64,000 nucleotides of DNA from contig JAQGDQ010000002.1 in assembly GCA_030141605.1 (NCBI GenBank), positions 1,718,501-1,782,500 of the forward strand. Reading direction: 5' to 3'. The notes beneath the pieces were generated by a model, which saw only the letters and a program-made list of their open reading frames with translations, had not been told where the DNA came from and did no database searches. Positions 354-40,900 of the stretch are shown piece after piece (within the stretch, counting starts at the first letter, position 1; every line of letters begins with the position of its first letter). The position numbers and the translations under genes are program-made. The DNA is from Tubiluchus corallicola (Eukaryota; Priapulida; Priapulimorpha; Priapulimorphida; Tubiluchidae).

Positions 354-3300
354 CTCATCCTCTTTGGTCCATCTTTCTCGCTTTGATGACTTCTTGCAGT
401 TTTTCGGTGGTTGGTCAAAATCGTCTTTGCTGATTGTACGAGCAAACACATCTTTTTCTCTTTCTCCAGCCATCTTATTTGAGTTTTTACCTGGTTTAAG
501 TTCTTTAGAAGGAGCGTGGTTTTCCGAACGAATTGCCCGTTTTCTTTTTCGAGCTGCACACAAAAATTGAACAAAATTACAAGTACAAATTTACAGTATA
601 GCCAAAAACTGATGTCATTTAGTTTAGGAAGGCTACTGAACACTGGCAACCTTTTACGATACATAATAACTTACATGCTTACCTAACACATAACTCATAC
701 AGCTAAATCACATAGCTTACGCATTATGCGAGTGCTGATCTCTAAACCAAAGAAGTTAACCTAGCTTGACAAGCACAAGTTTATAAATTTTGAAGTTTCC
801 ACAACAACTCTATGATTTTATTTGCAGATAACAGCTCTAATTTAGTGAATTCTAATCAGCTCTTAGCAGATGATTTTTTTCAAGTAACCACATGCAACTT
901 ACTGATGCGGAAAGTTCATATAAAAAAAATGATAGGAAATTACGTTTTTTTCTAATCACATTAAACTGCATTACATCAATAGGTCTCATTACATTACACA
1001 GGCTTTTTAAAATAACAGTTCTAAGTAAATTGCAAAGTCTGCTAATGTAAAAAGTTATGTTTGTTTACTGTTGATTAATGCCACTTAAATCAAAGTTTGT
1101 ATGCGTGCAGTACACTGGCAGCTACATTTTTTGTATTTGCATATAATGATAGTGTAATATCAAGAGCTAGGGAACTTAGTGTTTAAATGCTTACAAGCTA
1201 TCTGGTGATACATATCGTCCTTAGTGATTTGGTTCAGAGCTAGGGAACTTAGTGTTTTAATGCTTACAAGCTATCTGGTGATATATGTTGTCCTTAGTGA
1301 TTTGGTTCAAAAGTTATCAGAAGGCATAAGCCGTCCTAAATAAACAAATGCAAAGGTGCTGCTAGGAAAGCTTGTGGACTCTCTGTATATCATTATAGGC
1401 GAAGTGGGTAAGTTGCAAAATTATGTGACAAAGCTTGTCTAATCACCAAACAAACAAAGCAAAACGATTTCCCGCATTGCAAAATGCGAGTGGTGAGTAC
1501 ACTATAGTCACTGTAGTGTAAATTTTGCATTATACCCAAAAGTCATGTTTTGTTTTCCTTAGAAAAGTATAGGTAAGCAAATAACAGAGAACGTATACTG
1601 CTTTTTTTTACTTTTTGCCAATAGATACTAAATAAACTGTTTCAAAGTTGGGTGTCGTGTATTTTGCTCAAGTACGGACCAGTTATGCTTACAATGTAGA
1701 CTACCATACACAGCTAGCAGTTATCATTATAAACAAAACTACATGTAGAGTGGGATTTGAAGAATTTGAAAAGGTCTACAAAATGGTATGAAGTTTGCTT
1801 AGTAAAAAAAATATACAAACACATAAAAAGTAGGCAGTGTTGCATAGCGATAAGAGCAATCTATAGTTTTAAATTTGCAGTTTCTAAGTGTTAGTAATAA
1901 AAAACAAAATTACTGCAACGTATGTGAAAACTATATATTATTTATGATGACTAAGTGCAATCTTCATAGTAAGAATGCAAATCAACCGCTGTTTTGTAAT
2001 AGCGTAAAAACTGGGGAAATTGGAAAAACAGTTTACAGCAGTCAAATAGAATTGGCAGAGGATGACACGATTTTTGTTGAATTCACAGTAGCTAGAAACA
2101 AAATTTAAAATATGAAGGGTTTGTCTAACTTCTAGCTAAAAGTTTACTTGCTTTTGCTTTGTAATTAGAACATTTATGACTATTCTTGAAATGTTACAAT
2201 TGAAAGAGTATCACAACTCTCCAAAATCTACTTACCTGAAGAAGTGGTACTAGATATTTCACTTTTTTCGTCATCACTTTTGGTTGATAATAAATCAGAT
2301 TTGATGCCAGGTGACTCAGCTAGGTGGCCTGTACATCCCTGAAAATTTCTGCAATAATTTACTTCACACAAAAATGGAAAAAGAGCTTTTTACTCAGTAT
2401 ACAAATATCTGACACATATCTAATAAAGCTACAAAAGTCTAAGTAATTCCATAACAGTTGTAGGTGTTTAACAGTTCCAAACAATGTATTCAAAGTTGAC
2501 TAGTTATCAAGTACTAGGGATTTTAAATGTTCTTTTAAGGTATTTTAGAGATTTTAGAACTTTTCTTCGATTTTTTGATACTCATGTCAAATGCACACAA
2601 CTCGCATTCCATATGAAGAAAAAATTGCAAGATCAAATGTATTGTCAGCATCAGACTCCATATTTTTGCAACACAGAGGCCTTAAATTTAGCACCACACA
2701 CCGAGAGAGAAGCAATATGAAAATCTGGAGCCTAGAATCTTCTTTACAGAACATTTCATTAGAAGTCATACAGTTCTTACAATATTAATGGTGCCTATTT
2801 ACTACCATTGCAACCAGCAAAAGTTAAATAATGTAAAGTGCTCACCCAAAAATAATCCACACCTTGGTTCAAATATTGCAAATGATGAATAAATACAGCT
2901 TTTAGAGTAAAACAGAAAACAAGTGCTAATGACCAGTCAAGAAAACTGGCATAAAGTAAAAATGGCTGTCAAATATAGTGATATTAAAAGCCAGTTTATC
3001 AAAACAGAGCCATTTCTAGCTTTCAGTACTCAAAAAAATAACTCATTACCGAATGCTTAGCGTTATTACTATTTGAATTTTCACTATGAGATGATCCAGA
3101 ATCATTTTCCCCATTCAGAGACCTTGGTTGTTCTAAACTTGGTAGCTTTTCAATCCTACATATAAATACATTGTTAATAATAAATTAATGCGGCTATTAG
3201 AAGTTAGAAAATAAACTTCAGTACGTTAGCACATTTCTTACTTTTTATACATTTTTCTCACTTTACAAAACAAATTTACAAAACAAAGCGGATAGGCGAG

Positions 3301-6300
3301 ACAAATTACAATTTTTTATGTTTAGTGTAACACCATTTTTGGGTAATAACAAGTTAAAATAACTGCATCAGTTTATCAGATTCAACATTCTTGATTACTG
3401 TTTTAACAGGCTGTAACATTTTTCAGGAATTTTTCCATTTTTAGGTTTACAATAAATGTTCAGTCATAATTTTTCAATCTAAACCAGTTGCCCCTTTTCT
3501 AGTAAAAATTAGAACTTATTTTCAAGGCAATCAGTGATAGATGAAGACAGTTACATGAACCATTATGCCTGCAGGTGGCACAGAGAACAAATGTTACATA
3601 TAACATGCTCTCAATAATCTGTCTAGAGACTGACCACATTGCAGATCTTATGCTTACTGTAAGCTGTCAGCCATAATTCACAGTACGCTTCCCCTCAAAA
3701 GCCGTATTGAGTTTTCATAAGGTGCCTTATTGCGAAATGAATTTGGCCATTAATTTCATTTGCCATAAGGCGTTTTTGGTCATCTTTAATGCGGTAATTA
3801 GCATATTTGTTGTGTTACAGTCACAATTCATTTATATTGAGACAGAACATTTAACCATAACACAGAATAGTCTCACAAACATTAAAAAGGTATTTTCTAA
3901 ACAAGACGCTTCACTAATACTGCAATTAGATATATGCAGATTATTGTAATTAATGTAATGAAACATTCTAAAGGAAATATGTTATTCTGCAACACATTTG
4001 AGCAAAATTACATAAACATACATGAATAAAATTTGCAATTAATGCAACTCAGTCATTTCTATATAATTATACAATTACATTAAACACATTATCTAGAACT
4101 ACAAGTAAACATAAAACGATCCTTTCGGTCAGCAGTTTTGTAGGCTTACAGCAAAGCTTACTACAAACTCAATAAGCACTGTTTGTAGATATGTATGATT
4201 TCAGTCTTCTGTACTAAGGTGCTAAGGAATATCGTAACAACAAATTTTATTAATGCACTTGATGGCTTTGTACAAGGCTTACTACAACAAATGATCACAG
4301 CCATCTTTTTCAGCAAAAATGAAATATTTTGTTTAATATGTTCTTGAAATTGTTTTAAATTACTTTGTTTAGTTATGTACACTTCCAAAATTAAATCTCT
4401 TAAGAAACTTTCAATTAGGTCTGATTTACCTCAGCATAATCAAGTTTTTCTTCCCCTGTTACTTGACCAACCTGGTGCTAATGCAATCTTCTGCAAGACT
4501 TGTTGCCAAAAACTTGTAAAATAAGTGGAGGAACACCCTGGTTCAGTTGAAATTTTTTTAATTATCTTTCTTAATTGTTTGCAATATTATTATGAAATAC
4601 GTTGCCTGTTGCAGGAAAGGGATCTACCACCTGATTGTTAGTTCTGTTTTTAATTTTTAATATGTCGCATTATGTAAAATAAAGTAGCCAGATCCAGTGG
4701 GAGGCTCATTTTCAATCAGACAAACTAATGTATATAGATAAACCCAGATAAACTATACTGTAAGAAATTATTGATTTATACGTAATGCAAAAAACGGATT
4801 ATGGCAAAACTCCTTGCTATGTACATAGAGTAAAAAGCATACTGTAGATTACGTCAAACACCTTATAGCTTGTGTATTATGTATTATGGCTTGCTCCTTA
4901 TGCCATTCTCTGTGTGACACGGGCTTAAGACTCATCCTGAGTTGAATAACTGATAGTGACTACACATATTTATAGTTTTTTACAATAATAACAATTAACA
5001 CTGCGAACCTCAAAATTCTGCAATGATAAAAGATAACATGAAATTAAATGATCAAATTATTAAGTTGCAAGTTTTCCAATTTCTTGCAGTGCTGAGCAAA
5101 AGAATGTTTGTAAAAATCAGTGAAACAGAATTTGGAAATTGTAATTACCTCATTTTTTCAATAAATTACCAAAAACTGAAAATGAATGTCTCTAACTATG
5201 ACACATCTAAGACAAAAACACCGTCACTTGACACAACAGAACAAGCTATTTTAGCTGCAATAAAATTATTTTGTGATTCCTGCACAAAACGTGATCTTAC
5301 TATGAAAATGATATATAAATTTAAATCATACTCAACATATGCAGGAGGAAGAGCTGTCTCAGCATTTTCTTGACGGAGGCATTTGTTCGCTGAAGGCTTG
5401 GACTTTCGGGGAGATGGAGTGGCAAAACTTAGACTGTGACATGCTTTCATTGGCTCGTATGATGCAGATGAGACAGTGGATTTAAATTTTTCTCCAGTTT
5501 GCTCTAACGGAGATCTAGACTTTCCTGGAGTGGTTGTCAGATTAGGTGTACATTCAGATGATTTTGGTGTTGAAGTACATGCATATTTAGATATTGCAGC
5601 TGATGGGTCAAGCACAGATTTAGTCTTCATTGGAGTCAAACAAGGTGGAGATTCGGATATTTCTACTGCAGCATTAACTGCTGCTCCAAGTCGTTCAGGT
5701 ACTGTAGTGGATGTGGATTCAGATGTTACTGTTGATGGATCAGCTGCACATCCAGATGTTTTTGGCATTGAAGAGGCTGTAGTTACCTGACATTCCTACA
5801 AGATAAATTTAAACAAAGCCCAAAATATAAAAACAAAAACTTTTGAAGATTTCATTGCTCATTAGATCATCTCACTTACTGAATGAGTGAATGACTAACT
5901 AACTGAAATAAATGAATTTTGGAATTACTCAGTGCACGGCAGCATAGTGCTAATGACCTACTCAAAGCCTCTCAATTTAGATTCTTTACACTGTTTAAAA
6001 AATAGTTATTTGGACTACTATCGAATTCAGTCACTCACACAGTTAATGACTGAACACTGCATAACAAGGGCCTGTGTCTTTGGTGGTTTGAAAAGATCAA
6101 TCAATAAGTTTTGGACCCTACACACAAGTATCCTGCTTTGAATGAAGGATAGCACAACACATAAGCTGCAAAATTTTATTACTTTCATATAACTGAGTCA
6201 ATTAAAAAAATAGAAATTAAATAGGCTAAATAAGCTAAATAGATATTTAAGTGAAGCTGACAAAACAATTACCTCATCTATTCCGAATGCCTCAGGGTCT

Positions 6301-9300
6301 GCAGTTGTTTCAGCAAACTTATTCAAATATTGTCTTCCCGCCTAAATACATAAAATTGAAGGTAAAATTCACTAAACTAAATGACAATCAAAATTTAGGA
6401 AACTCTGGTACAATGATATGTGTTTTTCCCCAGCTGATTATCATTGTATAAATGTTACTTCAGTAACTGTACTATATTTCATGCTTTCGCTCCATCAGTA
6501 ATTGAATCTTCGTCTTCACACAAGTTTGCTATCATTGTAGATGATTCACTTGTAAGTACTTTTAACAGGGTAATACTGTTGCCACTATAAATGTTTTCAA
6601 ATTCCTGTAACTGCTTGATCAATTTCAGTAAACATTAATGTTATAACTTTATATTTTCAAAATGCAAAACAGCTGCTGAGAGTATTACCTGGGTTCACCT
6701 TGTTATATACTAAAGTTTATACTATACACGTAGATGCAACTCTATAATTTTTGAGAGAACTTAATAATAGCAGGAATCATAGTTTCACATCATACTTTTA
6801 CTTAAAAATTGGTTTCCAAAGTAAATTTTCACCAGTCCTTGTCACTATCTCAAGAGGGCTAGTTTTTGCCCACTCTTGACCTCAAAGCATAGCCTTGACA
6901 CTTGTCCAATTGATAAAAATACAGGAAATTTTAATTTCACTTGTGCACTAAATTAATTCTTTATATTATCCAGCAAATAGTAGATGAAAATATGTATAGG
7001 AGTGCAGCTTTAATATGCCTGAAGCTCAGTGCTTCAAAAAAGTTGTTTCAGATCTTTGTTTCGATGTTTTGTGTAGTTACATTGTTCATGACAGACACTA
7101 CATTCTGTTATCCAAATCTTGATGTCCACTGTTGCTTTAGTTATAAAGGTTGTGGTTTTGGTAGTAGTCTTAACCCAAACTGACACATTACTAAAGTATC
7201 TAATAGGCTAACTGGTTGTGGTTGTGCATCATTTTCTGAAAAATCGTGTTGCATTAATTATAAAGGTTGTGGTCTTGGCTGTAGTCTTAACCCAAACTGA
7301 CACATTACTAAAGTATCTAAAAGGCTAACTGGCTGTGGTTTTGCATCATTTTCTGAAAACTCTTGTAGCAAAGTAACCATGGAAACAAAGGTGCCCGTTT
7401 ACAGTTTTAGTCGCTAGATTGTTGCAGCAATGGAATATAAACACCCACTGGTAAGTAGCCAAAAACATGTATAACGGAAGGGTCGTACATGATTAACCAA
7501 GGAAATAAAAGCGTCGAAGTTTTCAATTCCTTACAAGTCAGTCAGTTAACAGGTAGCAACAAGGGTGATAACCTGACCCTCCATGATTAAACAGTGGATT
7601 ACCATTCTAGATGCTTTAGTCCTATATTAGTTCATTGGTTCCAACACTAGATTTAAGGCCTATCTCTGGTAGGAAACAGGTGAAAACAAAATATGCACCA
7701 AATAAAGTACCTAACATCCTGTAGAAAATTTGCCTGCTATAACATACTTTTAAAGCTGTTAAAATTTATTCAGGAGAACCAATTTTTTTCACATGTGCAC
7801 TAATAAGAGCTGTTCTTTCTTGTTGGCCTTTAAGATAACTTTTAAAATAGCAAAATAGCATCAGATAAATGAATTACAGTTTGAGATGGGTACCTACTGT
7901 CGTGGTGACTTTTACGACAACAGTTATAAACAAAAACGAGACCTTTTCCTTCTGCCATAATGCTAAATTTATTCCTTTTTTGAAAGTGCAATATACATTT
8001 TTTTCTGTGCCATGTGAACTCAGCAACTAACTTCCTATTTTAACTAAGTTAACTCCCCAAACCAGTTCCTATAGCTATATGTAAATTAATTCATTTTGGC
8101 TTCTTTACGGCGGGTGAATCGTGAAGCCCAAACTTCACGACACCTACGGACCAGCAAACAATTCCTCAATTATAAGCTTTGTCTAGGCCTGAAACATTAT
8201 AAAATTTATGTATGATGCATTACAACCCACATAACACAATGAGAAATAACTCAATGCTCAATTACCTGGACAATCAGCATGAAATAGCAATAAAATCTTA
8301 CCTCAACTAACATAGGTGTTGGAAACGACCCATACATGATGCAAAGTAACTCTACCATCTTATTTATGAAGTTCTTAAAAGCCTCAGTATACAAGCAGAC
8401 TGTTTTATTTCTGGCTTCTTTTACATTGTCTGCAATAGCCGCTACATCCTGTAATTTAAAAAAATTCAACTTTTTTGCTTTAAAAAATAAATAGACAACT
8501 AGATGCAGAAATTACTACATATACATAGTTCAAATAAGTACAAAGTGCTTGTGCATATTACATTTGGCTACCTATTTGCAAACTGCAAATGTGTTGATAA
8601 ATTGTAGTTATATTAAACTAAGGATAATAGCAAGTGAGAACAGGGTGATCAAAAACTCGTAAACAAGTTGTTTAACAAATACGTGTGATAGTCCTGGTTT
8701 CGTAGCATTTTGCAGTATTTAAATAGTGATATGATAATTTGATTAAGCGTTAACATTACTTTAAATATTATTTTACTTATTAACATGAACAATATATTAA
8801 CGAACATAAAAAATTCACAAATTTAAAGTTTAAGCTTAGAGATCAAAGAATGCAGGTAGATTTATCTGTTAGTTTTGGGGGAAATTAATGGCAGGTAAAA
8901 ATATAATTTACAAAATAGTTGACATTTTGTATAATACAATACACAAAATATTATAATATAATACACAAAATATTATTAAAATTTGGACTAACGCCAATTA
9001 CACATTGGTTTAAAAACTGCAAATTTATAAACACTGACAATAAATACCATACTATATAGATAATAACTTGCAAGCAACTCTTAAATAATAAGACTTACTT
9101 TATCATCAACTAATGTGTCTTGATATTTGTCGTACACTGAGGATGCTCTATCAAAATTCTTGTCAATAAAACTGCAAAAAACAGCCTGAAAAACAACAAC
9201 ATTCACAGAATGAATAGATTTAGTGATTAATAAACTAGAGCATTTTCTACAGTTTATGTTGGTGTTCTAGTTTCGTCGGAGGCCGAAACTAGAACACCAA

Positions 9301-12300
9301 CATTTACTGTAGAAAATTTTTTGAAACTTGCTTAGTATTAAAAAAGTTACTTTGAAGCAGCCAGTTAGATCAGGCAAAAAGCTTTAAAAAGCATATCTTA
9401 AAAAAATCAAATTTATTGATACAATAGATTAATATTATTATAATCATTTTAAAGCAGCAGTGAAGGCAAAATACGACTGGATGTCAAAATTCAGTTTAGA
9501 CATTGCTGATAACCACATCATATTTAAAGAGTGACGAAAAGTTTTGTACAGGCAAAAATAAGCTGTATTAGTTGTTGCGTCATGTCTCTGGTAGCTCTAG
9601 CGCATTTAACCATGTACGTGCATGTATAGTAAAGCATAAATAAAATACTGCTGTATCAGATTTCTTTGTGCTTCAGATCTGCTCTCACTTCTTAAAATAT
9701 TTGATGAGAACTTCCTGCTTCACTTCTTTGCAGCAATAACTTTTTTCCCAAAAAGTACTTTCGTGCTGAAATAACTACCAACACCGCTCATTTGGTGCAA
9801 GCCACTTTGGCACCATTTTAGAAATGAAAAGAACACCTCCTCCAACAAACAGTTATGTATAAAGTAAAGTAACGGTCAATGAAAACTGATCACGAGGACA
9901 TAGTTCAGTGTATTTAATGTCATTCTTATGAATTTCAACTGGTATTTTGATTGTTGGTGTTTTGAAGGATGAAAGTAGGCTAAGCATTACGTCTCCCACA
10001 CGTTTTCATTATTTATCTGCCACAATTCTAAATCAGTGTTAACTACATGTAATAAGCCTACTTTAGCATTTAACAAGAAAAACTGTAACATTCTTCGTTA
10101 AAATTTATGCATTGTTACATTTCTTGATGATGAAAAATTTTCAACATTTTAAACAATACTTCATCTGAGAATTCATTACTAAATTTTGAGCAACTGGAAT
10201 ACAGTAGGTTAACTTACTTTAATTTTGTTGGACACAATTCAAAAAGTAGCACTTGTTAAATACCACAGTGCAAGGTTTTTGAAATGGTAGTGTTGCTCTG
10301 AACCAAGAACTAGTAGAACAGAAAATTAAGCACACTTTTCCAATATAGAACTTTCAATACAAAGTTCTTAAAAAGACCTTTTTTCAGAGGCAAAAAATGT
10401 GAGAGTTGGGGGTGTTCTGTCACAACCCTATCATGACAGCTTATAGTACTTCTACGAACCTTTTAGCCATATACTTTCTCACACCTGTTTTATATAATCA
10501 TCCCACAGTTCGTGTATAATACTGTAAATGCCAAATTTTATTAATCCTGTTCGTTTAAATAAGGGGAACTCAAGCCCCTACCTGTGATAAGCCTACCTGT
10601 TTAGCAAGTAACTGTCTTGCTTCTGTAATCAGCTTCTTATCAATTTGTAATCCACTATCAATGGAAAACAGTTTGTCAAAAAGTTCGAGCACATAGTCCA
10701 ATACAGACTGCTGTGAATCATCTTCAGACGGTTGACAGAAATCTATATCATTGTCCAGTGAAATCACCAACTTCATGAACAACAAAAGCTTGCCTCTCCT
10801 GCGGACTGAAAAGTCAATATTTTTCTGCCAAACATCTGAAAAATAAGATCTAAAAGTTGAGTAAGTTGTGATATCGATGATAAGCACAAAACAAATAATA
10901 CTGATAATGTGGATCATCAAACCTTATCAGGAAGGGTTCGAAGTTTGGAAGTTGTAGATAACGAGAAGGACTCAAAAAATAATAGCTGCTTCTGTGTATA
11001 ATTATTTATAATATAACATTAAAGTCCATTTTGAATTTGCACTAATTATCACAAAACATTACAAAATAAAAAATTACAGGATTTTATCAATTAACCCAAT
11101 CCATCTGAGTGTAAATTGCAAAATTCCTTTGTTATGACAGAAAGAAGTGTGCTGAAAAATAACAAATTAAATGAATAAACGAAAAGTTTAAAAAAATTAC
11201 TGGTGTAGGATAGAAACTCAAACAGTAAACTCCAGGCATGTATAATTAGTTATACTTATAGATGTTGCAAGTGCACAAGCTTTGTTTTTCTGCTCTAAGA
11301 AGGCTGAAAGTTTATTACAAACATTTACACATCCGCCACATGAGATTTTTTTGCTCTTCAATATTCAGTTAGGGGACAGCAACTTTGAAAACTGAAAAAA
11401 GTTGCTACATTAAATAATCACTGGCAATGCGTGGCACCATTTTCATGGGTCTCCCGCCTCAATTTGGTTATACTAAGTTTTGCCATCAAATTAATTGTAG
11501 GTGTGTTGGATAGTGTTGCCACCTGTTATTAAAATTCACAGTTACAAATTAGTTCACTAGTAGTTACGACTATATTGCATCGTTTAATGTGGATACGCTT
11601 TTTAATTATTTTTAACTTGCTTAATTATTAATATCGATAAACACTGGGTGTTCTCTCTCTAAATACAGACCGTTGTACTATAACCATATCCATATCCAAT
11701 GTGAAGGCTACAGGTAGATCCATGGATCACCTGTAATGCCTGTTCTCTACTGTATGGTACAAGAAACTTTTTTGATTCCACTCATATTCTAAATTTCATT
11801 TAAATGCATTTATTGATTTAGATGCTATAGTTTTGCTGCTTAGCCCATTCCAACTGTTTACTATTCATCTGCTGAAGGTGTACTTCCTTACATCCATTCT
11901 AGCTCTGGGTTTATAGAGTTTATAAGGATGTCCTCTTGTAAATGCTGAATTCCACAAAAAGAACGATGACTCGTCCAAAACATCGATTTTATTGATAATT
12001 CTAAAAACCTGAATCATGTCACTTCGTTGGCATCTGTATTGTAAAGACGGAATGCTTAATTTTCTTAGTCTTTCTGTTTAATTCAAGTCACTGAATGATA
12101 GAATCAGCTTGGTAGCCCTTCGTTGCACATTTTGTATGAGTTGAGCATCTCTTATAAACCTTGGTCCCGAAACAACATTTGCATATTTTAGATGTTGTCT
12201 AATAAGAGCTTATCAGATTATCTGATCATGATTATCTGAGCCATCATTTCACTGTTTATGTATGTAAATGTATGTTTGATGGCTCCAAGAATTTTATTGG

Positions 12301-15300
12301 CTTTGTTTACCGTAGAGCTTGTATGATTGTGAAACTTCAGGTGCTCATCAATTAGCACACCCAAGTCTTTCTCACGGTTTCTGACCACTTGTTATGCCTT
12401 CATTGTCTTGCATATTTCGGAATATTACAAACCATATGGAGCAATTTACATTTCTCTGTATTGAATTTTAATTGCCAAATCCTAGACCAATCAGCAAGAA
12501 TGTTAATGTCCTGTTGAAATTGAACCATTGACTGATCACTATTTAGTGAGCTATGCATGTTTGTATCATCAGCAAAAACCTTTACAGTCACAGACATAAT
12601 TAGAATCAGATGTTGTAATTCATCTATTATGCTGGACAGAAATATTCTTCTATCCAACATAATCCTTTGCCATCTATTCCATAAGCTCTTAGCTTGATGA
12701 GAAATCTATGATGTGGTACACTGTCAAAAGCTTTTTGAAAGTCCAGATAAACACAATCAACAGGATGTCCATTGTCAAGCATATGCGTCTGGTCTTCTAA
12801 AACCTCCAGCAACTGTGTCACACAAGATTTACCAGAAGAGAACCCATGTTGTTGAGCATTGAACAAATTATTGGATTCCATATGGTTGACGACAGCATCT
12901 CATATAAATGACTCAAAGACTTTCATAAGATCTATGTTAAGCTTATTGGTCTGTAATTTGTGACTGATTTCTTGCTACCTTTTTTATGTAGAGGCTTCAC
13001 TGCTGCATCTTTCCACAGTTGAGGCAAGTATGACTCGTTCAATGATTTGTTATAAAAATGGCAAGTGGAACAGCCAACTCCTTGGCAATCTCTTTAAGTA
13101 TTTTTGGACAAAATCCACCTGGACCAGGTACCTTAGCTAGTTTAAGCTTTTCCAGTTTCTTCACAACCATTTCTTCAGTAATTTCCATGGTAAGGAGCCT
13201 AGCTGTCACTTCTCTATCACTTAGTGTTGGAATACTACTTAAATCCTCCTGTGTAAAATCACTGGCAAAGTATGAGTTAAATACCCCAGCCTTTTCTTTA
13301 TTGTCAGAGATTTCATTATTTTCCTGCACAACGACACCTATTTTGCTAGCAGTCTTGTTACTACAGAAATGATTTGTTTTCAAATTGCTTATCAAATCTT
13401 TCTCAAAATTTTTCACTAATTTACGAGTGAGATTCCTGGGCACATTTTTTTCTCGAATGTACAATCTATAATCATTTTTACACTTTTAGATATTGAATAA
13501 CGCTTCCATAGGTGATTTTTCTTCTTTGCCTGCTTTATTGCTGCTTTGTTCATCCAAATATTCCTTCTTCTGCTTTAGAATTTCTTTTCAGTGGTACATT
13601 ACTTTTAACTGAATTTTCTAAGATAGTACTAATGGCAACAAAAAATGCTTCAGCTTTTTTATTCTGTAGTTCAGCAACCCAATCAATGTTTGCAATGTTG
13701 CTTCTGATATTGTTGTAATTTGCTTTGTTGAGATCTAATTGAGGTATAGCGCAATGAGTAGTATCCCCATAACTTAGAATTTGCATGTATATACATATAT
13801 GATCGCTATCACCTATCGGAGGATGACTTTCAATATCATTTACAAGATTTTCCTCATTTGTTAAGACAAAATCTAAAATATGGGGCTGTTCCCCAGAGCA
13901 AAACCTTGTTGCAAAAAATACGTGCTGAAAAAGAAGCAGTCTTTGAAACAATCCACAAATTCTGATTCATAGTTAATCCTACTTGACCAACTAACCCAGT
14001 CAACATTAGGTAAATTAAAATCTCCCATTACCAATTTGTGTGAAAACCGGTTAGTCAAGCTGCACTCCCTCAATAGATTTTGCATGGCAGTATTGTTTAC
14101 ATGACTGTTTGAAGGGCTTCTACAGACATCCAATGTCTTTGTCTTTAATGTTCAACCTAATCCACACATGATCAGGTACATCAATATGGGTCATCAAAAT
14201 AATCGTCAAGAAAAGCATTTAAAGTGCTTTTTCATGTAAATTCAGACACCTCTTTGAAAGTGTTTACTAATACTTGAAAAAATATCATACCTTCAAATTG
14301 AAGAACACACTGTTGAACATTAAAGAAGGCATTTTTTGGCAAAATTTCAGCCACTCCAAAAGGATCAATGTCATGTGTAACTAATAGCAACTGTAATTCA
14401 CTCAATTTGTTCTTAAGAGAATCTGTGTTAGTATACATACAAATAACTGTCAGTTAGATGCGTCTGTACATATTTATAAGAACTTTTGTTACAAATAGAA
14501 CTAGCTGTATGTCTGTGAGCTTCAGCGGCATTTGTAGAGCTCTCAATGCGATGGCTTGATAAAGGAGGAAAGTCAATGACAAAGTTTTCAGGATCAACGC
14601 GAAAAACGACTTTGCCTTGCTTTATAATGACATTTTCTCCCTTTGCTTTTCTCTCTTTAAATTCCTTCACAAGCATTTGATTCTTCTCCCTTTCCAATTT
14701 TGTCATGTCAGGAGAGATGAGCAAGTTAGAATAGTCAACACTATTTCTAAGAGATTAAGCCTTTTTCAGAATTTCCTTTTTCTCGTTAACAGAAAATTGC
14801 AAAAGTTGAATTTTGTTTTCATTGTTGTCACTAACATTGTCATTTGTTAGGCCCTGGCAGAAAAATAACTAGATCAGTCTTTATTGTTGCAGAATTACTG
14901 TCAACCGTGCTGCTCTGACAGGTCATCTGTAATCTCTCTTCGTGAAAATCACTGCTGCCTTATCAATCTACCTTAATGTGATAGAAAGCATAATTTATAT
15001 TACTTATTCTCACCTCTAGCTTAGATCCATGTGCCTAATGCTGTAAGGAATTTCTTCCCTTCAGTATCAAGAGAGCCAATGGTTTCAACAGGAATCAGCA
15101 CAAAATGGAATGATGGCAAAAGATTATTGCATTTACTTAGTATCAATTTAGTAATAATAGTACTAATAGTAATACTAATACTAATTACTATACATATATA
15201 GTAACTAATACTAATACTAATACTACTACTAGTAACTAATACTAGTACTCAGTAGTACTACTAGTAATATTTATGATTTAGTTACTGTGCCTGTGTACGT

Positions 15301-15555
15301 CTAATGTAAGCATGTTTCAACAAGGTCACACTTACTCTTCAAAAAAATTTTACTTTCGCTGGTCACTTCTCCGTTGTTTGAGAATTGTTCCCACACAGTA
15401 TAACAAACGTAATCAAACATCCAACCATCTACAACATTTTGGAGTTTTTGAATTTGGTTCAAAGCGCAAGGCGCCATAATTCCCTTAACAACTAACATTG
15501 AACACATTGATTTCAACTTCATCATGAACGAGCTGTTGTGTTGATGGCTAACCAT
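354..15555 (-). CDS. TERF: Telomere repeat-binding factor (TERF/TRF family), nine exons, C-terminal exon(s) missing at the window edge
   Basis: Proteins of this family bind double-stranded telomeric DNA through a C-terminal Myb (telobox) domain and dimerise through a TRFH domain, as the core of shelterin. Exons on the minus strand: 15336-15555, 10597-10835, 9099-9185, 8302-8448, 6273-6341, 5332-5795, 3050-3155, 2236-2338, 354-553. All borders are GT-AG and every phase matches, giving 545 codons. Residues about 41-254 (exons 1-5) form a TRFH domain: VVDGWMFDY resembles the start of the vertebrate domain, and FIDKNFDRAS in exon 3 resembles the KNKEFEKAS stretch of TRF2. Residues 255-535 are a low-complexity hinge rich in Ser, Thr, Pro, SP and TP, with a basic RKRKR cluster at the start of exon 9. 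Exon 9 ends in RERWTKEDE, the beginning of a Myb helix 1, at a GTAGGG donor. The remaining roughly 45 residues must lie beyond base 1. The start is the first ATG of exon 1; an in-frame MM pair at residues 11-12 is an alternative. The exon 6 donor (GTATGA) was chosen because it restores phase. The family call is strong; assignment to TRF1 or TRF2 is not possible. Confidence 0.87.
1163..1308. repeat. Tandem duplication, period 73 bp, two copies
   Basis: The segment beginning AGAGCTAGGGAACTTAGTG at 1163 is repeated at 1236 with only a few substitutions, ending TTTGGTTC in both copies. It lies in the last visible TERF intron (between exons 8 and 9). No coding content is seen. Confidence 0.9.
7141..7374. 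repeat. Tandem duplication, period 117 bp, two copies
   Basis: TTATAAAGGTTGTGG begins both units, at 7141 and 7258. The copies share nearly all bases, including CTTAACCCAAACTGACAC and GCATCATTTTCTGAAAA. It sits in the TERF intron between exons 4 and 5, and no gene is seen in it. Confidence 0.9.
9242..9317. repeat. Near-perfect hairpin: 34-bp arms, 8-base loop
   Basis: Left arm 9242-9275 and right arm 9284-9317 are reverse complements at 32 of 34 positions, separated by the 8 bases TCGGAGGC. The two mismatches are adjacent (TT opposite TT). It lies in TERF intron 2, about 60 bp upstream of exon 3. It could be a fold-back transposon remnant, a recent inverted duplication, or a small-RNA precursor; the sequence does not decide between these. 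Confidence 0.9.
11640..14880 (-). mobile_element. Decayed CR1/Jockey-like non-LTR retrotransposon (LINE) inside TERF intron 1
   Basis: Reading the minus strand from right to left in the window, broken frames show in order: an ORF1 C-terminus (LLISPDMTKLEREKNQ, around 14725), the start of an endonuclease (YTNTDSLKNKLSEL, near 14420), endonuclease catalytic motifs GDFN (near 14020) and GDSDH (near 13815), a linker, then reverse transcriptase with VYLDFQKAFDSVPHH (near 12740) and the FADD box (12567-12578), followed by a decayed thumb and 3' region (LGVLIDEHLKF, near 12350). Several stops and frame changes interrupt it, so it is dead. It has the same orientation as the host gene TERF. The 5' and 3' limits are approximate because no target duplication was found. 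The CR1/Jockey clade call rests on gene order and motif style, not on a tree. Confidence 0.85.
15121..15265. repeat. Degenerate ACTAAT/TAGTA simple repeat
   Basis: Runs of ACTAAT, AGTACT and CTAGTA units with frequent changes, in TERF intron 1 close to exon 1. A related TAGTAC-rich tract flanks the element at 19712-20162. Confidence 0.85.
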
Positions 15556-15694: not shown

Positions 15695-16530
15695 CCGGTA
15701 TTGTTCATTATTTTCATTAATGATATAGATAATGAATTTCCACTCACATTTTAAAATTTGCAGGTGATACAAAATTGTATAATCCAATTAACTCTGTAGT
15801 GGATTCATTAGTTTTACAGCATGATATTGAACAACTATGTAGGTGGCGTAATGATTGGCAAATGTTATTTAATGTTGACAAAGTAATGAAGTAATGCATT
15901 GCGGTTTTTGGGAATCTTAAAAGTGATTATGTTATTAATGGAACAACTCTTCAAAGTACAAATAGTAAAAATGATCTTGGTGTAATAGTAACATCAGACT
16001 TGAAATTTCCCCAGCAATGTGTATCCTCTGTTAAGAAAGAAAACAAGATTTTTGGGATGATAAAGCAGCACATCGCTTTTAGAAATAAAGAAATTGTATT
16101 GCAATTATACATTGGTTTGGTCAGACATAATGTAGAATACTGTATGCAGCTTTGGAATCCCCATTATCGAAAAGATATATTGCCTATGGAATGTGTACAA
16201 AGGCGTGCTACAAGAATATTATTAGGTTGTAAAAATATGACATATTTGGAACGATTAAAATATTGCAGTGTGACCATGCTTGAGTTAAGAAGACACTGTG
16301 GAGATCTTATTGAAGTTTATAAAAAATTAACTGGAAAAGAAATCATTTTGCCTGAAAAATTCTTTAATTTAGTTGTTGATTGTTGTTGTAGAACTAGAGG
16401 ACATAATTTAAAACTGTTTAAAGCACAAGAAAACCCTTCATAAACATAAAGGTTAAAAAAATTGTCTTGAAATTTTATGTCACTTTCATACTGCCTTTTT
16501 GCATACAGGAGTTCAATCGGCAGTCACGCT
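15695..16530 (+). mobile_element. LINE 3' fragment (reverse transcriptase palm end and thumb)
   Basis: On the plus strand the residues FINDIDNEFP and FAGDTKLYNP (a degenerate form of FADDTKLY) lie near 15710-15780. After a frameshift they are followed by an open stretch to 16440 with LGVIVTSDLKF, a VRHNVEYCMQLWNPHYRKD segment, VQRRATRI and SRTRGHNLKLF-like RTRGHNLKLFK. These are the standard motifs of the region after the catalytic box in CR1-like LINEs. The frame from 16000 to 16443 is intact for 147 codons, but the catalytic core and endonuclease are missing, so this is a 5'-truncated dead copy. It starts only about 140 bp upstream of the TERF start codon, in the opposite orientation. Confidence 0.85.
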
Positions 16531-16552
16531 GTATAAAGCATGTAAATTTAAA

Positions 16553-16979
16553 CTCCCGCAATGACCGTTAGACGCAGCCATTTTAACGACAGGTCACTTG
16601 AAATAAGTTTAGATAACATTGTGTAAACTTTGAAAAAATAATCAGAGCATTCGTAGTCATGAGAGCATCACTAACTGAGTAAAATTTTAAATTACTGTAT
16701 CTTGTCAATAAGTTTAAAAGTACGTTTTTGGTTAGTGAGTTGTGCATCCTGGCGGGTGAGTCAGCGACATTTTATCTATTGGTGAAAACATTTTAAATAA
16801 TTAAAAAATTTTCTTTTCTAGTTGCAAGAAGTCTTTCCAGCAGGTTAGCGAAAAGCTAAGTAACAGACATTTACATGTAAAGTTTTTTGGGACATAATTT
16901 AACATTCCTTTTTCTTCCCCTGATTTACGCTTACATAGTGACGTCATGTAATGGCGACATAGGTACTGTATTGCGGGAG
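16553..16979. mobile_element. Non-autonomous terminal-inverted-repeat element (MITE), copy 1
   Basis: The ends are CTCCCGCAAT and its perfect inverse ATTGCGGGAG; weaker inverted similarity continues inward for about 40 bp. ATTTAAA flanks both sides exactly (16546-16552 and 16980-16986), which reads as a 7-bp or longer target duplication. No open frame resembles a transposase. The interior is similar to 33855-34190. Confidence 0.8.
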
Positions 16980-23815: not shown

Positions 23816-23825
23816 TTAGTCGACA

Positions 23826-26345
23826 ATGGGTATTGAACATGTGGAAACATCTGAAGAGAAACACGAAAAATCACGAAGGCATAACCATAAAAAGAAGCAC
23901 AAAAGACATAACAGACATAATAGCAGTAGCAGCACAGGTGAAGATTTTCCAGCCTTGGGTGACTTGTCTGGTCAAGCTGCTGGGCAAATGATTGTTGATT
24001 CAGTTGCTGCACATGACAAGAAACGGGGAAAGTCGCGAAGGCATAGTCACAAGCAAAAGCACAAAAGACATCACATTCATAATGTTCGTGACAGTGACGT
24101 TGAGGACGGTGCAAGTGTGAAAAAACGCAAACGAAAAAGTAGGAGCAGCGATGTAGAAGAAAAAAGACATGCGGAAGATGATTTTGAAAGAACGCACATA
24201 CAAATAAGAAGGCACCGATCTCGATATGAAGAAAATAATGAGCGTGACCAGATGAACAGAAGAAGACACTATTCTCCTCAAGGTGAATATTGGAGAACCA
24301 GAGATAGACATAACTTTGAGAAAACTGAGAATTTCTCGGATGAGCTAGAAAGCTATAAGATGTCTAGAAAACATGCTAGAAATGTACGTGAGTCACACCC
24401 CAACAAAAGTGAAGCCGGTAACAAGAATGGTGACAAAGCTACTAACAAAGAAAATAAAAATTCGGGAGCTGATTCATTTGATAAAGAAAGTGCCAATGGT
24501 GTCCCAAGCCAAGACCCAAAAGAAAATGTTGAATCTGAACCTCCAAAGAACAAGAAGAATGAGGACATATTGACCATGCGAACGGGTGGTGCATACATAC
24601 CACCAGCTCGGTTAAGAGCGATGCAAGCACAAATAACTGATAAATCGAGTGCTGCTTATCAAAGGATAGCATGGGAGGCTTTGAAGAAGAGCATAAATGG
24701 TTTAGTTAACAAAGTGAACGTGTCGAACATTATTGATATTGTACGAGAACTCTTTCAAGAGAATATTGTGAGAGGCAGAGGCTTGTTAAGTCGCTCAGTT
24801 ATTCAAGCCCAAGCTGGTTCACCTACATTTACACATGTGTATGCAGCTGTGGTTGCTATCATTAACACAAAATTTCCCCAGATTGGTGAGCTCATATTAC
24901 GGAGGTTGATTATCCTTTTTCGTAAAGCCTTCAAGCGAAACGACAAAACAACTTGTCTATCAAGTTGTAAGTTCATTGCACATTTGGTGAATCAGCAGGT
25001 AGCTCATGAAGTTCTGAGTCTCGAAATTTTGACTCTTTTACTGGAAAATCCTACAGATGATTCAGTTGAAGTAGCTGTTGGATTTATAAAAGAGGTTGGT
25101 GCAAAGTTGACTGAAGTTTCTCCGAGAGGAGTGCGTGCCATTTATGACAGAATGAGAAGTGTTCTTCATGAAGGGAAGGTGGATGCAAGAGTACAATACA
25201 TGATTGAAATAGCTGTTCAAGTTCGAAAAGATTCATTCAAGGACTTTCCGTCTGTTTTAGAAGAACTTCAGAAGGTGAAAGAGGATGATCAGTTTACACA
25301 CATGCTTACTTTAGAAGAAGCCGGGTCTACAGAAGATAACCTGAATGTCTTCAAACATGATCCTGATTATGAAGCCAATGAAGAGAAATACAAAGCTATT
25401 AGAAAAGAGCTTCTGGAGGAAAGTAGTAGTGAGGAGGAAGGCTCTGACAATAATGGTAGTGATGATGATGAAGACAGTGATGACAGCGTAGAAGACGAGC
25501 AAGAGAAAACAACTGTAATTGACAACACAGAAACAAATTTGATCGCTCTACGCAGAAACATTTATTTAACTATTCAGTCTAGTTTAGACTTTGAAGAGTG
25601 TGCCCATAAACTACTAAAACTGCAACTGAAACCTGGTCAAGAAACTGAACTTTGTCACATGATTTTGGATTGCTGTGCACAACAACGAACGTACGAGAAA
25701 TTCTATGGTCTTCTTGCTCAGCGATTTTGTACACTAAACAAAATCTACATTCAGCCATTCCAAGATATTTTTGCACAGTCGTATGAAACCATTCATCGGT
25801 TAGAAACCAATAAGTTACGCAATGTAGCAAAGTTTTATGGACACCTCCTATATACAGACGCTATATCTTGGGAAGTTGTGCAACACATAAAAATGAATGA
25901 GGATGATACAACGTCGTCAAGTAGAATTTTCGTAAAGATTTTGTTTCAGGAACTGGCTGAATATATGGGCATAATAAAATTGAACGAACGACTAAAAGAC
26001 CCAATGCTGCAAGTATTTTTTGAGGGTCTTTTACCAAGAGATAATCCGAGAAACACTAGATTTTCTATCAACTTTTTCACATCTATAGGATTAGGTGGAC
26101 TGACTGATGAGCTTAGAGAACACCTGAAAAATGCACCTAAACCTGTGCCTGTGCAAGAGGAAGAATCATCTGGTAGTAGTAGTAGTACGGATGGTGACAG
26201 TGATTCGTCAGAAGATAGTGCAAGTGATAGCAGTAACAGTTCGGAAGACTCTAAAGGTGGTAGTTCCAATTCAAGTGAACCATCTACCTCTGAAGATAAT
26301 GGAAAAAGTAAACATTCTAAAAAGAAGTATTCCAGAAGACGATGA
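23826..26345 (+). CDS. CWC22: Pre-mRNA-splicing factor CWC22 homologue, intronless coding sequence
   Basis: CWC22 joins the spliceosome, stabilises the catalytic complex, and hands eIF4A3 to spliced mRNA to start exon-junction-complex assembly. The 839-residue frame (human protein about 900) has a basic, His-rich N-terminus with a duplicated KSRRHxHKxKHKRH motif (about residues 14-30 and 67-83). The family signature [14 protein letters not shown] is at 253-266. A MIF4G domain, the eIF4A3-binding part, follows at about 270-475 and includes [13 protein letters not shown] and [13 protein letters not shown]. An acidic linker lies near 530-562. The MA3 domain is at about 570-700, with [15 protein letters not shown] and [14 protein letters not shown], followed by [19 protein letters not shown] and a Ser/Asp/Glu-rich tail. 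All conserved blocks are intact, so it looks functional. The complete lack of coding introns in this intron-rich region is odd and hints at an old retrocopy. The start is the first ATG after an in-frame stop. Confidence 0.95.
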
Positions 26346-33854: not shown

Positions 33855-34190
33855 CTCTCGCGATGAGCGTAGGTCATTTGAAGTAAGTTTAGGTAACCTT
33901 GCATGAGTTTGAAAAAATAATCAGAACATTCATTGCATATACTTAAGCATAAATTACTTTATCGTGTCAATAAGATTAATATAATATTTTTGCAGAGTCA
34001 GTAATTCATCCCGGAAAAGCGAGTGTGTCATGTTTTACCGTTGGCGCAAACATTTAAATTGCTAGAATTCTCTTTTCAAGTTATGTAAGTCTTTGAAACA
34101 GGTAAGAGTAATACAAAGTAATATAACTTTCCTGGAAAGTTTTCTAGGACATACTTTGGCTTACATATCAGTAGCCATCATATTACTATA
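33855..34190. repeat. Second, truncated copy of the element at 16553-16979
   Basis: Shared blocks in the same order as at 16553-16979 include AGGTCA(C/T)TTGAA, TGAAAAAATAATCAGA followed by CATTC, GTGTCAATAAG-type sequence, and TTTTCT(G)GGACATA. The left end CTCTCGCGATGA corresponds to CTCCCGCAATGA. The right terminal repeat is absent or unrecognisable. Confidence 0.7.
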
Positions 34191-37986: not shown

Positions 37987-40900
37987 GATAGAAAAGGTAG
38001 CAGGATCAGCAGTATGGCAGATAGGAGCGCTAAAGGGGACATTTACGGAACATTGTGGCTGAAACAGGTCCTAAATTGTCTACAGACATTTTCCAGGTCC
38101 AGTAAACAAACCTAATTTAAAATAATTAAAGTAGGTCATTTTTGATAGAAACCACAAACAAAGTTGAACTTTTGTTATGTGATGACATTTAACTTGTAGT
38201 AAAGCTTAGTTATTCCATTTATAACATTGTTTCCTTTTCATAACATGTTTCCTTTCCATAACTTTTTTTCCTTTTACAAAAACTAACTTTGCTTGCAAGT
38301 ATTTATGCGCACAGTGTTTTATTTCTTCTAACTGAGGTATTAAAAAAAGAAGTTCTGTATGCATTTTTTTTTGTTCCAGCTCTGCTTGCCACAAGGATTG
38401 TCATTTCGCACTCAGAAAGATTACAGGGAACCACGTTTTCACTCATTTATCATCACTCGTGAGGATGGATCACGAACTTATGGTTTCGGTTATACCTTTT
38501 ATGAAGAAGTCCGCAGTAAGGAGATATGCATTGCCATGCAAACTTTGCATGCGATGCATTTAGCTGAACTTGCTAACAGTCAGTCACGGACTTTATATCG
38601 TCATTCAAGTCAGGAACGTGACAGAGAGGATTCAGTTGGTCGTCATACTCTTCCGAAGTCAGGTCGCTCTAGTCCACCTAATGTTAATCAAGTATCGTTC
38701 TATGATATTACGAAAGATACTCTGTATGTGACAAAGTGCATTTGTTTTATATCTCAACTACCATTCGTTCGTGCCTCGCGTAAATTTCTGAAGGCTTTGT
38801 ATAGAGCAGTTTGTTCTACTAGAGGTCCACCAATGCCACTTGAGAGCTACGTGTATAATGCTCTTTTTGAGGTGCCTCTGCCACCTGTTGGTAGGACTCT
38901 AAAGTTTCAGTGTTTAGATGAAGACATATTATGTATCAGACCAGGTAATACAAAGTTGCATATTTCAATTTGTAACAGTTTTAATTTTTTTACCAAAATT
39001 TCACATTCTTAAATTTCTTGCAAAGCATTTAATCTGGTTGCAGAGTGCATTTTAAAAAGCTCAATCAACCATTTTAAAATTAATGTAATTGCAAAATTGT
39101 TTAAACTTTTCTGAATTTTTTTTACTTTTGTTACTTTCATGATTATATGATTTATATTATATTGCCATTATATTGCATGATAATTGCATTTGCACATGTA
39201 TATAAATTCCCTATAGTAACTTACTTAGCAAGTCAATATTTTATGCTGAAAACTAATATTTTGAAATCTCATATATTTTTATTTGCCTGCTAGGTTTGAC
39301 TGAACTGCCATTGTTTGAATATTCTTTGCGGGAGATGTTTACATTATTGGGAGTAGAAAATACCATTCAATTGTTCACCTGCTCTTTATTAGAGCATCAA
39401 ATACTGTTATTTTCTAAAGGTAATTTTCCATTATTTAATAAGTGCCTAAGAAATGATTTTGTATTTTTGGAAATCGTATTGATGCAGAGCCAAATTGCAT
39501 TTGTTTAGGTGAAAATGAGTGTTTGAATGGATGCGACTATGACTGTTTTCATGGTCCTTGTCCTTTCATTTGTTCGCAAAATGATTTTAGTGAAATCTTG
39601 ATAAACTAGGAAAAAACCCCATCTTTTAAACACAGTGGGAAAAAATATAAATATTTATATTGACTACCAGTTACAAATAAAAGGTCTGTCAGTGAATGTA
39701 AAAATGAGAAATATAGGGAAACATATGAAATTATGGAAGATCTTTGGAGGCAAATTATTACTAAAGTGGACACTGGACAGGTTCTTAAATTTTTGTAAAT
39801 CATTTGATCAGGCAAGCACTGAGCAATTTCAACGTTTGTAACTTAATAATTTATGTAATCATCTTGTTTTTTAAAGTTAAGTTAAGACATACATGCAGCT
39901 TCCAGAATTTATTTTGAGCTGTGCAGAGGTTTAATTGCCAATATTAGAGTTACATTTTTATATTAAGTTTTCTGCTGCTGAACAACTGTTATGGTGTTAT
40001 TTTCTGGCACTTATACAAAACTCATTTCAGTTTTGTGAAATTAAAAAACTATGCATTTTTTGCGACAAAAAGTTTGATATCTAAATAAGCAAAATTTTGA
40101 TCTGCAAAGGTGTAAAAACATATTCACAGTATGACTTGACCCACCTGCTTATTAGTTATATAACTGATGTCTTAAATTTTGTTAGCTATTAGTACCTGTA
40201 TTCATTTCTTATGCATGCTTTCTTTTTTGCAGATTATCATAAGCTTGGGCTTGTTGCCGAAGGTGTCACGATGTTGTTATTTCCCTTTACATGGCAACAT
40301 GTATATGTGCCTATCTTACCGGCATCTCTTTTACATTTCCTCGATGCCCCTGTACCGTACATCATGGGGCTTCATCATTCGACCCCTCAAGATAGAGCAT
40401 CCTTGCAACTACCCGGTGAGGTGAGTGTATTGGAAATAACTTGTATAAAGTAGCTTACATAACTTTGCTTATGTTAAGTATTCAAACTAGTATGTAGAGG
40501 TACTCAACTACTAAACTTAATTAATTGAAAATGTGTATCAGTAATCAATGATATAGTAGTCTGATGTCGATTCCACTAATCATTTTAAGATAATATGTTA
40601 ACAATGTGTGAATGTGACTGCTAAATTTGTAACCATTTCATAATTTATTGTATGTCCTAACTAAAGTTTACTGACATCAAAAGAGTCTGAGCTTCAGTTT
40701 TCAATTTTTCTATGCAAGTATAGATGTTTATTTTTTATATATATAAATTATTATTATAATTATTATTATTTTTATTATTATTATTATTATTATTATGAGT
40801 TTATTTCACATAAAAATATACAGCTTACAAAGACAACAGGATGTTAGTAAAGTAACATATCTACAGAAATTCAACTTTGTAATATCCTCTTAAGTATGCT

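Follow-up and report, generated by a model that had tools for sequence, protein, structure and literature searches.

An intact-looking ten-exon TRF gene of a probable non-vertebrate animal and a paralogue that most likely arose by its own duplication

Overview

The window analyzed here is a 64,000-nucleotide stretch of contig C1209 (C1209:1718501-1782500) from an animal genome assembly of 343.5 Mb in 2344 contigs with a GC content of ~33%. We found that the minus strand of the window carries nine of the ten exons of an intact-looking, 599-codon gene of the TRF family, referred to as TRF-A, and that a second gene, TRF-B, is located on contig C1801. TRF-A most likely belongs to a non-vertebrate, and TRF-B is best explained as its paralogue from a duplication in the animal's own lineage, independent of the one that produced vertebrate TRF1 (TERF1) and TRF2 (TERF2). 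Judging from the sequence comparisons described below, we assign this interpretation a probability of roughly 93%.

Gene structure of TRF-A

The sequence-only reading of the window had proposed nine phase-compatible minus-strand exons encoding 545 residues. This proposal proved correct when the splice sites were read directly; AG and GT flank the exons, the phases fit and the joined frame is open. The motifs singled out in that reading, VVDGWMFDY in exon 1, FIDKNFDRAS in exon 3 and RERWTKEDE at the close of exon 9, were all present, and exon 1 additionally aligned with the human TRF1 stretch GWMLDFLCLSLCRAF. A Myb exon had been expected within a few kb to the left of base 1, and it was indeed located there as exon 10, in the 10 kb segment that adjoins the window on the left (L001), where it completes the telobox. 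Exon 10 follows the acceptor TTTTTGCAG, reads LRFYKAVKQYGTGNWTRIWSAGRFHNRTNVQLKDKWRHMESSGLAEEYEELLKM and ends in TGA TAA, with an AATAAA ~114 bp beyond the stop. The 54 residues encoded after intron 9 bring the product from 545 to 599 amino acids, and the ten-exon model is complete with its stop codon.

To select a model, six exon-1 donors, five exon-6 donors and seven exon-7 options were combined, of which 12 combinations stayed open as far as the Myb domain; the model retained uses the GTAAGT donor after exon 1 and includes exon 7. Because 12 splice combinations were open, the part of the linker encoded by exons 6 and 7 is the least certain of TRF-A. An in-frame ATG that begins MAPCALNQ is an alternative start. 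The long interspersed nuclear element (LINE) reported in intron 1 was likewise genuine; upon Pfam searches with six of its pieces, two matched RVT_1 (3.3e-9 and 6.9e-7) at or above the family cut-off, two matched Exo_endo_phos_2 (1.1e-4 and 1.7e-3), both below the cut-off, and two had no match.

Myb and TRFH domains of TRF-A

The C-terminal domain of TRF-A matched the Pfam Myb family PF00249 with an E-value of 4.5e-10 and is a TRF-type telobox Myb. Its best matches among solved structures were five chains of human TRF1, with E-values from 1.1e-9 to 2.3e-8 (8ox1, 1.1e-9; 1iv6, 1.7e-9), followed by human TRF2 chains from 1e-7 (phmmer). Four residues of the VxLKDxWR motif (V, K, D and R) belong to the recognition helix of the telobox Myb, and by eye all four were present in both TRF-A and TRF-B.

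The relationship of the N-terminal region to the TRFH domain was revealed by profile-profile comparison. When the TRFH domains of TRF-A and TRF-B were aligned as a profile with those of human TRF1 and TRF2 (hhalign), the probability was 96.7 with an E-value of 4.3e-10 over 188 columns. A repeat with other settings gave a probability of 92.9, an E-value of 3.6e-7 and a score of 49.8 over 92 columns; by comparison, the highest scores were 20.7 in 200 column shuffles and 31.5 in 200 shuffles that kept the hydrophobic pattern, and two reversed controls scored 13.2 and 11.3. Global alignment of the TRFH domains gave z-scores of 5.1 (A with TRF1), 6.1 (A with TRF2), 8.7 (B with TRF1), 9.5 (B with TRF2) and 28.7 (A with B). 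For TRF-B, the score also stood out from hydrophobic-pattern shuffles, with z-scores of 6.0 for TRF1 and 6.8 for TRF2 and none of 1000 shuffles reaching either value. In addition, a phmmer comparison of full-length TRF-A with human TRF1 placed residues 37-60 on 69-92 and residues 140-173 on 166-199; the positions and the order of both stretches are as expected, and each was insignificant alone.

A second TRF gene on contig C1801

The sequence-only reading had envisaged a single TRF, which turned out to be wrong. A genome search with the 599-residue TRF-A protein gave 14 places. Ten were on C1209, and the four on C1801 were 124431-124559, 121796-122083, 120468-120611 and 95849-96007, the last being the Myb exon with 53% identity. 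The reciprocal search with the TRF-B protein gave 15 places, comprising 11 on C1801 and four on C1209. Neither search revealed a third TRF locus at E-values up to 1, although weak exons can escape such searches.

TRF-B was modeled within 48 kb of C1801, which is 405,937 bases long. The preferred model encodes 506 residues and is one of 44 open models that differ in the linker. Coding score and splice sites guided the choice of exons 6 and 7, and exons 8 and 9 were picked partly on phase among the 44 open models; the search for the fifth exon was restricted to lengths divisible by three. Exon 8 has a GC donor in the chosen model. The intron phases are 1,0,0,0,0,2,0,1,0 in TRF-A and 1,0,0,0,0,2,0,1,1,0 in TRF-B, a match that is not independent evidence for those TRF-B exons that were chosen by length or phase.

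Two other views of this locus were rejected. TRF-B as a haplotype copy of TRF-A was ruled out by a TRFH identity of only 36-37%. Coding-looking exons, perhaps of another protein, are present on the same strand between TRF-B exons 4 and 5 (C1801:111925-110016, minus strand). We set aside a division of TRF-B into two genes, as the exon beyond these intervening exons matched TRF-A exon 5 with a score of 31 (22 for the next different exon), and the intervening exons were accordingly taken to lie inside an intron.

Relationship of TRF-A and TRF-B to TRF1 and TRF2

The TRFH domains of A and B were 36-37% identical, and those of TRF1 and TRF2 were 28-29% identical. In the Myb domain, A and B shared 30 of 55 residues and TRF1 and TRF2 shared 31 of 55, while the four cross pairs shared only 22-23 of 55. 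In a quartet tree built from the TRFH and Myb domains, the grouping of A with B against TRF1 with TRF2 was ahead of each alternative by 46.7 log units, and the approximately unbiased (AU) test gave p-values of 2.15e-6 and 2.17e-6 for the alternatives; neither gene grouped with TRF1 or TRF2 proper. Since A and B group together against TRF1 and TRF2, their duplication was probably independent of the vertebrate one. A vertebrate should itself have TRF1 and TRF2, which suggests that the animal is a non-vertebrate. A search for COX1, through which the mitochondrial code might have helped to place the animal, yielded no match. Our results agree with the sequence-only reading in that the gene encodes a shelterin-type TRF with a TRFH domain and a telobox Myb, most likely of a non-vertebrate. 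The light that the gene was expected to shed on the origin of TRF1 and TRF2 was not obtained; A and B have no direct bearing on it, as they resemble one another more than they resemble TRF1 or TRF2 of humans.

We compared the two genes with known systems. Like vertebrate TRF1 and TRF2, they encode an N-terminal TRFH domain, a long linker and a C-terminal telobox Myb with VxLKDxWR, and they form a pair of genes that arose by duplication. The differences are that A and B resemble one another more than either vertebrate protein, which points to a separate origin of the pair, that their TRFH domains are too diverged for the Pfam TRF model PF08558, and that neither model contains an N-terminal basic or acidic domain, although an upstream exon may encode one. 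TRF proteins of invertebrates have been published, and the iDDR has been called an ancient TRF feature (PMC10497418); the present case differs in comprising a pair of TRF paralogues within a single assembly. According to another article, TERF2 kept telomere binding after the vertebrate duplication and TERF1 changed, and medaka has two TERF2 paralogues (PMC5309834). These paralogues and the rodent POT1A and POT1B described there are, like A and B, lineage-specific duplications of shelterin genes; those pairs arose within vertebrates, whereas the duplication of A and B took place outside them. In the literature searched, as far as the available text of the articles extends (including PMC5309834, PMC7227075, PMC9688111, PMC10497418 and PMC11260466; Myler et al. 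2021 was not covered), no invertebrate with a pair of TRFs was described, and we make no claim of novelty.

The interest of these results comes from the independent pair more than from the window gene alone. The need of vertebrates for two TRFs is usually studied in a single duplication; with an independent pair, the question could be put again by observing which functions separate each time. Furthermore, as PF08558 misses both genes, it is unusable for counting TRFs; the Pfam model can miss true TRFs, and counts of a single or absent TRF in invertebrates that rest on PF08558 alone are unsafe.

Alternative interpretations

Several observations weigh against the assignment of A and B to an independently duplicated TRF pair. 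The TRFH match anticipated by the sequence-only reading appeared in the profile-profile comparison of A and B with TRF1 and TRF2 and failed with Pfam; PF08558 had no match in whole TRF-A at E-values up to 1, in the TRFH fragments of A or B up to 10, or across the genome up to 0.001, while human TRF1 was found at 3.5e-42 in the control. A phmmer search of solved structures with the TRFH region of TRF-A alone retrieved no TRF structure and a single chance match with an E-value of 1.2. Under hydrophobic-pattern shuffling, TRF-A alone was weak, with a z-score of 2.7 for TRF1 (reached by 7 of 1000 shuffles) and 3.6 for TRF2 (1 of 1000), and the strong TRFH signal needs the inclusion of TRF-B. The quartet, moreover, comprised only four sequences (A, B, human TRF1 and TRF2), so that long-branch effects may contribute to its result. 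The silence of PF08558 and the weak signal of A alone would be expected if TRF-A were another telobox-Myb protein with a chance similarity of helices to TRFH. We consider this extremely improbable, given the E-value of 4.3e-10 over 188 columns in the profile comparison, that in the repeat the real pair scored 49.8 and the best of the 400 shuffles 31.5, that the TRFH region comes first and the Myb last as in TRF1 and TRF2, and that these two proteins were the best matches of the Myb domain. The assignment of TRF-A to the TRF family is, in our assessment, sound. It is hardly more probable that A and B correspond as orthologues to TRF1 and TRF2, in which case the duplication would predate the vertebrates; the two genes do differ in short motifs, and B has a TRF2-like iDDR candidate, but the two trees in which a human gene pairs with A or B had AU p-values of ~2e-6, and the Myb identities within the pairs exceed those across them.

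There is also a small chance, somewhat above that of the preceding alternatives, that A and B are not paralogues and that the assembly mixes two organisms with one TRF each. Foreign DNA is present in the assembly, as contig C179 carries a bacterial histidyl-tRNA synthetase, and the TRFH identity of A and B is no higher than 36-37%. The GC content, however, was alike in the two regions (33.4% in L001 plus the window and 33.0% in the C1801 stretch), and an intron of TRF-B holds one copy of a repeat family dispersed over many contigs. A 395-bp piece of this copy (L011:4792-5186) gave 3172 first-look candidates; the 40 that were scored lay on 39 contigs including C1801, none of them on C1209, and were 72-80% identical apart from the query itself. 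Within the window, the same family has two copies (16520-16919 and 33947-34144), with identities of 69 and 75%. As none of the 40 scored matches was on C1209 and their identities were 72-80%, the repeat is support rather than proof of linkage; based on it and the GC content, two organisms are unlikely. An independent duplication within one genome is the interpretation that we prefer. C179 (L013) is a bacterial contig, perhaps of a symbiont, within the animal's assembly, and by eye the synthetase is followed by a sigma-factor-like frame.

Predicted function and possible division of labor

In the TRF family, the TRFH domain serves for dimerization and as a docking surface, and TTAGGG is read by the telobox Myb. 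By family resemblance, TRF-A would dimerize through its N-terminal TRFH domain, its C-terminal telobox Myb would bind duplex TTAGGG repeats, and the protein would thereby tether shelterin to chromosome ends; its dimerization, DNA binding, telomere location and expression are all predicted properties.

We also considered whether A and B may have split the jobs of an ancestral TRF, with A docking partners via a TRFH loop and B restraining MRN via an iDDR. In the four-way alignment, the aromatic residue of DIDF in A is aligned with the Phe of AQF in TRF1 and that of CSF in TRF2, at a position where B has a 10-residue gap; we take these Phe residues to be the docking-site aromatics F142 and F120, respectively. 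The docking peptide motif for the TRFH site is F/YxLxP, as given in PMC7227075. B contains the stretch FSEENEEAF, starting 28 residues before the RRKW of its Myb, and A has no match to this pattern. For comparison, the human core iDDR comprises residues 460-472 with WVEEDELF and the plug residues W465, L471 and F472, as described in PMC11260466. In a phmmer comparison with the TRF2 iDDR-Myb chain 9q9j, the match of B begins at chain residue 44, which by count, from coordinates only, puts its A-F on L471-F472. When the 220 residues that precede the Myb of B were shuffled 20,000 times, the pattern arose in none of the shuffles, and likewise in none of 20,000 for A, although it had been written after B was seen.

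Against such a division, the iDDR pattern is post hoc, and the stretch in B exceeds its human counterpart by one residue and has Phe in place of Trp465 and Ala in place of Leu471. The phmmer match of A to 9q9j reaches back to residue 506, a weak iDDR-like stretch, so A may keep a worn or diverged iDDR. The loop alignment of such distant proteins is uncertain, and TIN2 was not found in the model search. The contrast in iDDR and docking loop, which consists of short stretches interpreted post hoc, is suggestive and a further point of caution. We therefore regard the division of labor as a tentative idea that is rather unlikely. Slightly more doubtful is the full scenario in which the independent duplication was followed by a split like that of TRF1 and TRF2, with B keeping a RAD50-restraining iDDR and losing the docking loop and A keeping the loop and losing the iDDR. 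If this were true, evolution would have carried out the TRF1/TRF2 experiment twice, each time independently.

Telomere setting

A genome-wide search for four TTAGGG units in tandem yielded 103 matches in the forward orientation and 78 in reverse, counted with overlaps, and the reversed pattern had none. POT1 was found on C156 (L006:481-2886) with PF02765 at 2.6e-20 and PF16686 at 1.2e-7; its 801 codons form one frame without interruption, in contrast to the intron-rich TRF genes. TERT was present on C2301 (L007), at one place only among the matches listed, as a long frame with the RNA-binding domain at 3.2e-28 and the TEN domain at 1.5e-7. The part of TERT that was seen has no intron (818 and 258 codons in one frame), and an in-frame TAG at L007:834-832 (minus strand) separates the part with the RNA-binding domain from that with the C-terminal extension; an error in the assembly, a null allele or a pseudogene could account for this TAG. 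A probable RAP1 Myb was encoded by a first Myb exon on C725 (L014:1378-1614, YNEKEDIAIMKYIVEHKRYREVKGIKLWRDMEELQ), which matched the Pfam Rap1 Myb model at 5.6e-5, below the curated cut-off.

The only genomic match of the TIN2 model, with an E-value of 0.50, was the bacterial histidyl-tRNA synthetase on C179, and the Rap1_C and TPP1 models had no matches in the genome or in any of 14 control genomes. In the control genomes, the TIN2 model matched one bacterium only, below the cut-off. As these three models were nearly silent in the controls, their silence here is not proof of absence.

Exon coordinates and neighboring genes

The coordinates of both TRF genes and of the LINE fragments are summarized in Table 1.

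Table 1. Exons of TRF-A and TRF-B and LINE fragments in TRF-A. Positions are those of the window unless a contig or segment is named.
Feature	Position	Strand	Description
TRF-A exon 1	15555-15336	-	First in-frame ATG at 15555; first TRFH helix VVDGWMFDYVCY; open frame, donor GTAAGT, phase 1
TRF-A exon 2	10835-10597	-	TRFH helices; DIDF aromatic aligned with Phe of human TRF1 (AQF) and TRF2 (CSF)
TRF-A exon 3	9185-9099	-	TRFH, AVFCSFIDKNFDRASSVYDKYQ; weak phmmer stretch against human TRF1
TRF-A exon 4	8448-8302	-	TRFH, FKNFINKMVELLCIMYGSFPTPMLVE; conserved in TRF-B
TRF-A exon 5	6341-6273	-	Final TRFH helix and start of linker; TRF-B counterpart found
TRF-A exon 6	5795-5332	-	Ser/Thr/Pro-rich linker; donor uncertain (ends at 5404, 5337 or 5301 also open)
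TRF-A exon 7	3155-3050	-	Linker; least certain exon; flanking phases recur in TRF-B model
TRF-A exon 8	2338-2236	-	Linker
TRF-A exon 9	553-354	-	End of linker, basic stretches, first Myb turn (RERWTKEDE)
TRF-A exon 10	L001:9330-9166 = C1209:1717830-1717666 (~670-834 bp left of window base 1)	-	Completes Myb
LINE fragments in intron 1 of TRF-A	12403-14151	- (strand of the gene)	Reverse transcriptase and endonuclease, several frames
TRF-B exon	C1801:124544-124430	-	MNVQEIVNGWLFDYVCYITWHEF
TRF-B exon	C1801:122082-121868	-	IWKSSNSFDYNIRERRNLLLL
TRF-B exon	C1801:121379-121293	-	AVLVCCKDGDFEKAREVYQRH
TRF-B fourth exon	C1801:120623-120474	-	DKLKIIQGIL...TPMLIE
TRF-B fifth exon	C1801:108212-108123	-	AGEKYIQVYTEH
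TRF-B, four linker exons	C1801, between the AGEKYIQVYTEH and RSKRERGKYRHRRRKWTQDEE exons	-	
TRF-B exon	C1801:101700-101636	-	RSKRERGKYRHRRRKWTQDEE
TRF-B last exon	C1801, from 96004	-	IRFFKAVKKYGEGQWRRILSVCKFPHRTNVNLKDKWRSM...ERS stop

Upstream of TRF-A, the plus strand of the window carries a frame of 841 codons that encodes MIF4G and MA3 domains (23820-26345), which we take to be CWC22-like, and a DENN/uDENN exon (38344-39012). Downstream of TRF-A, two exons of a family 2 glycosyltransferase, presumably GALNT-like, are located on the minus strand (L001:4769-4046), and a collagen repeat frame is present beyond them on the plus strand (L001:987-1202).

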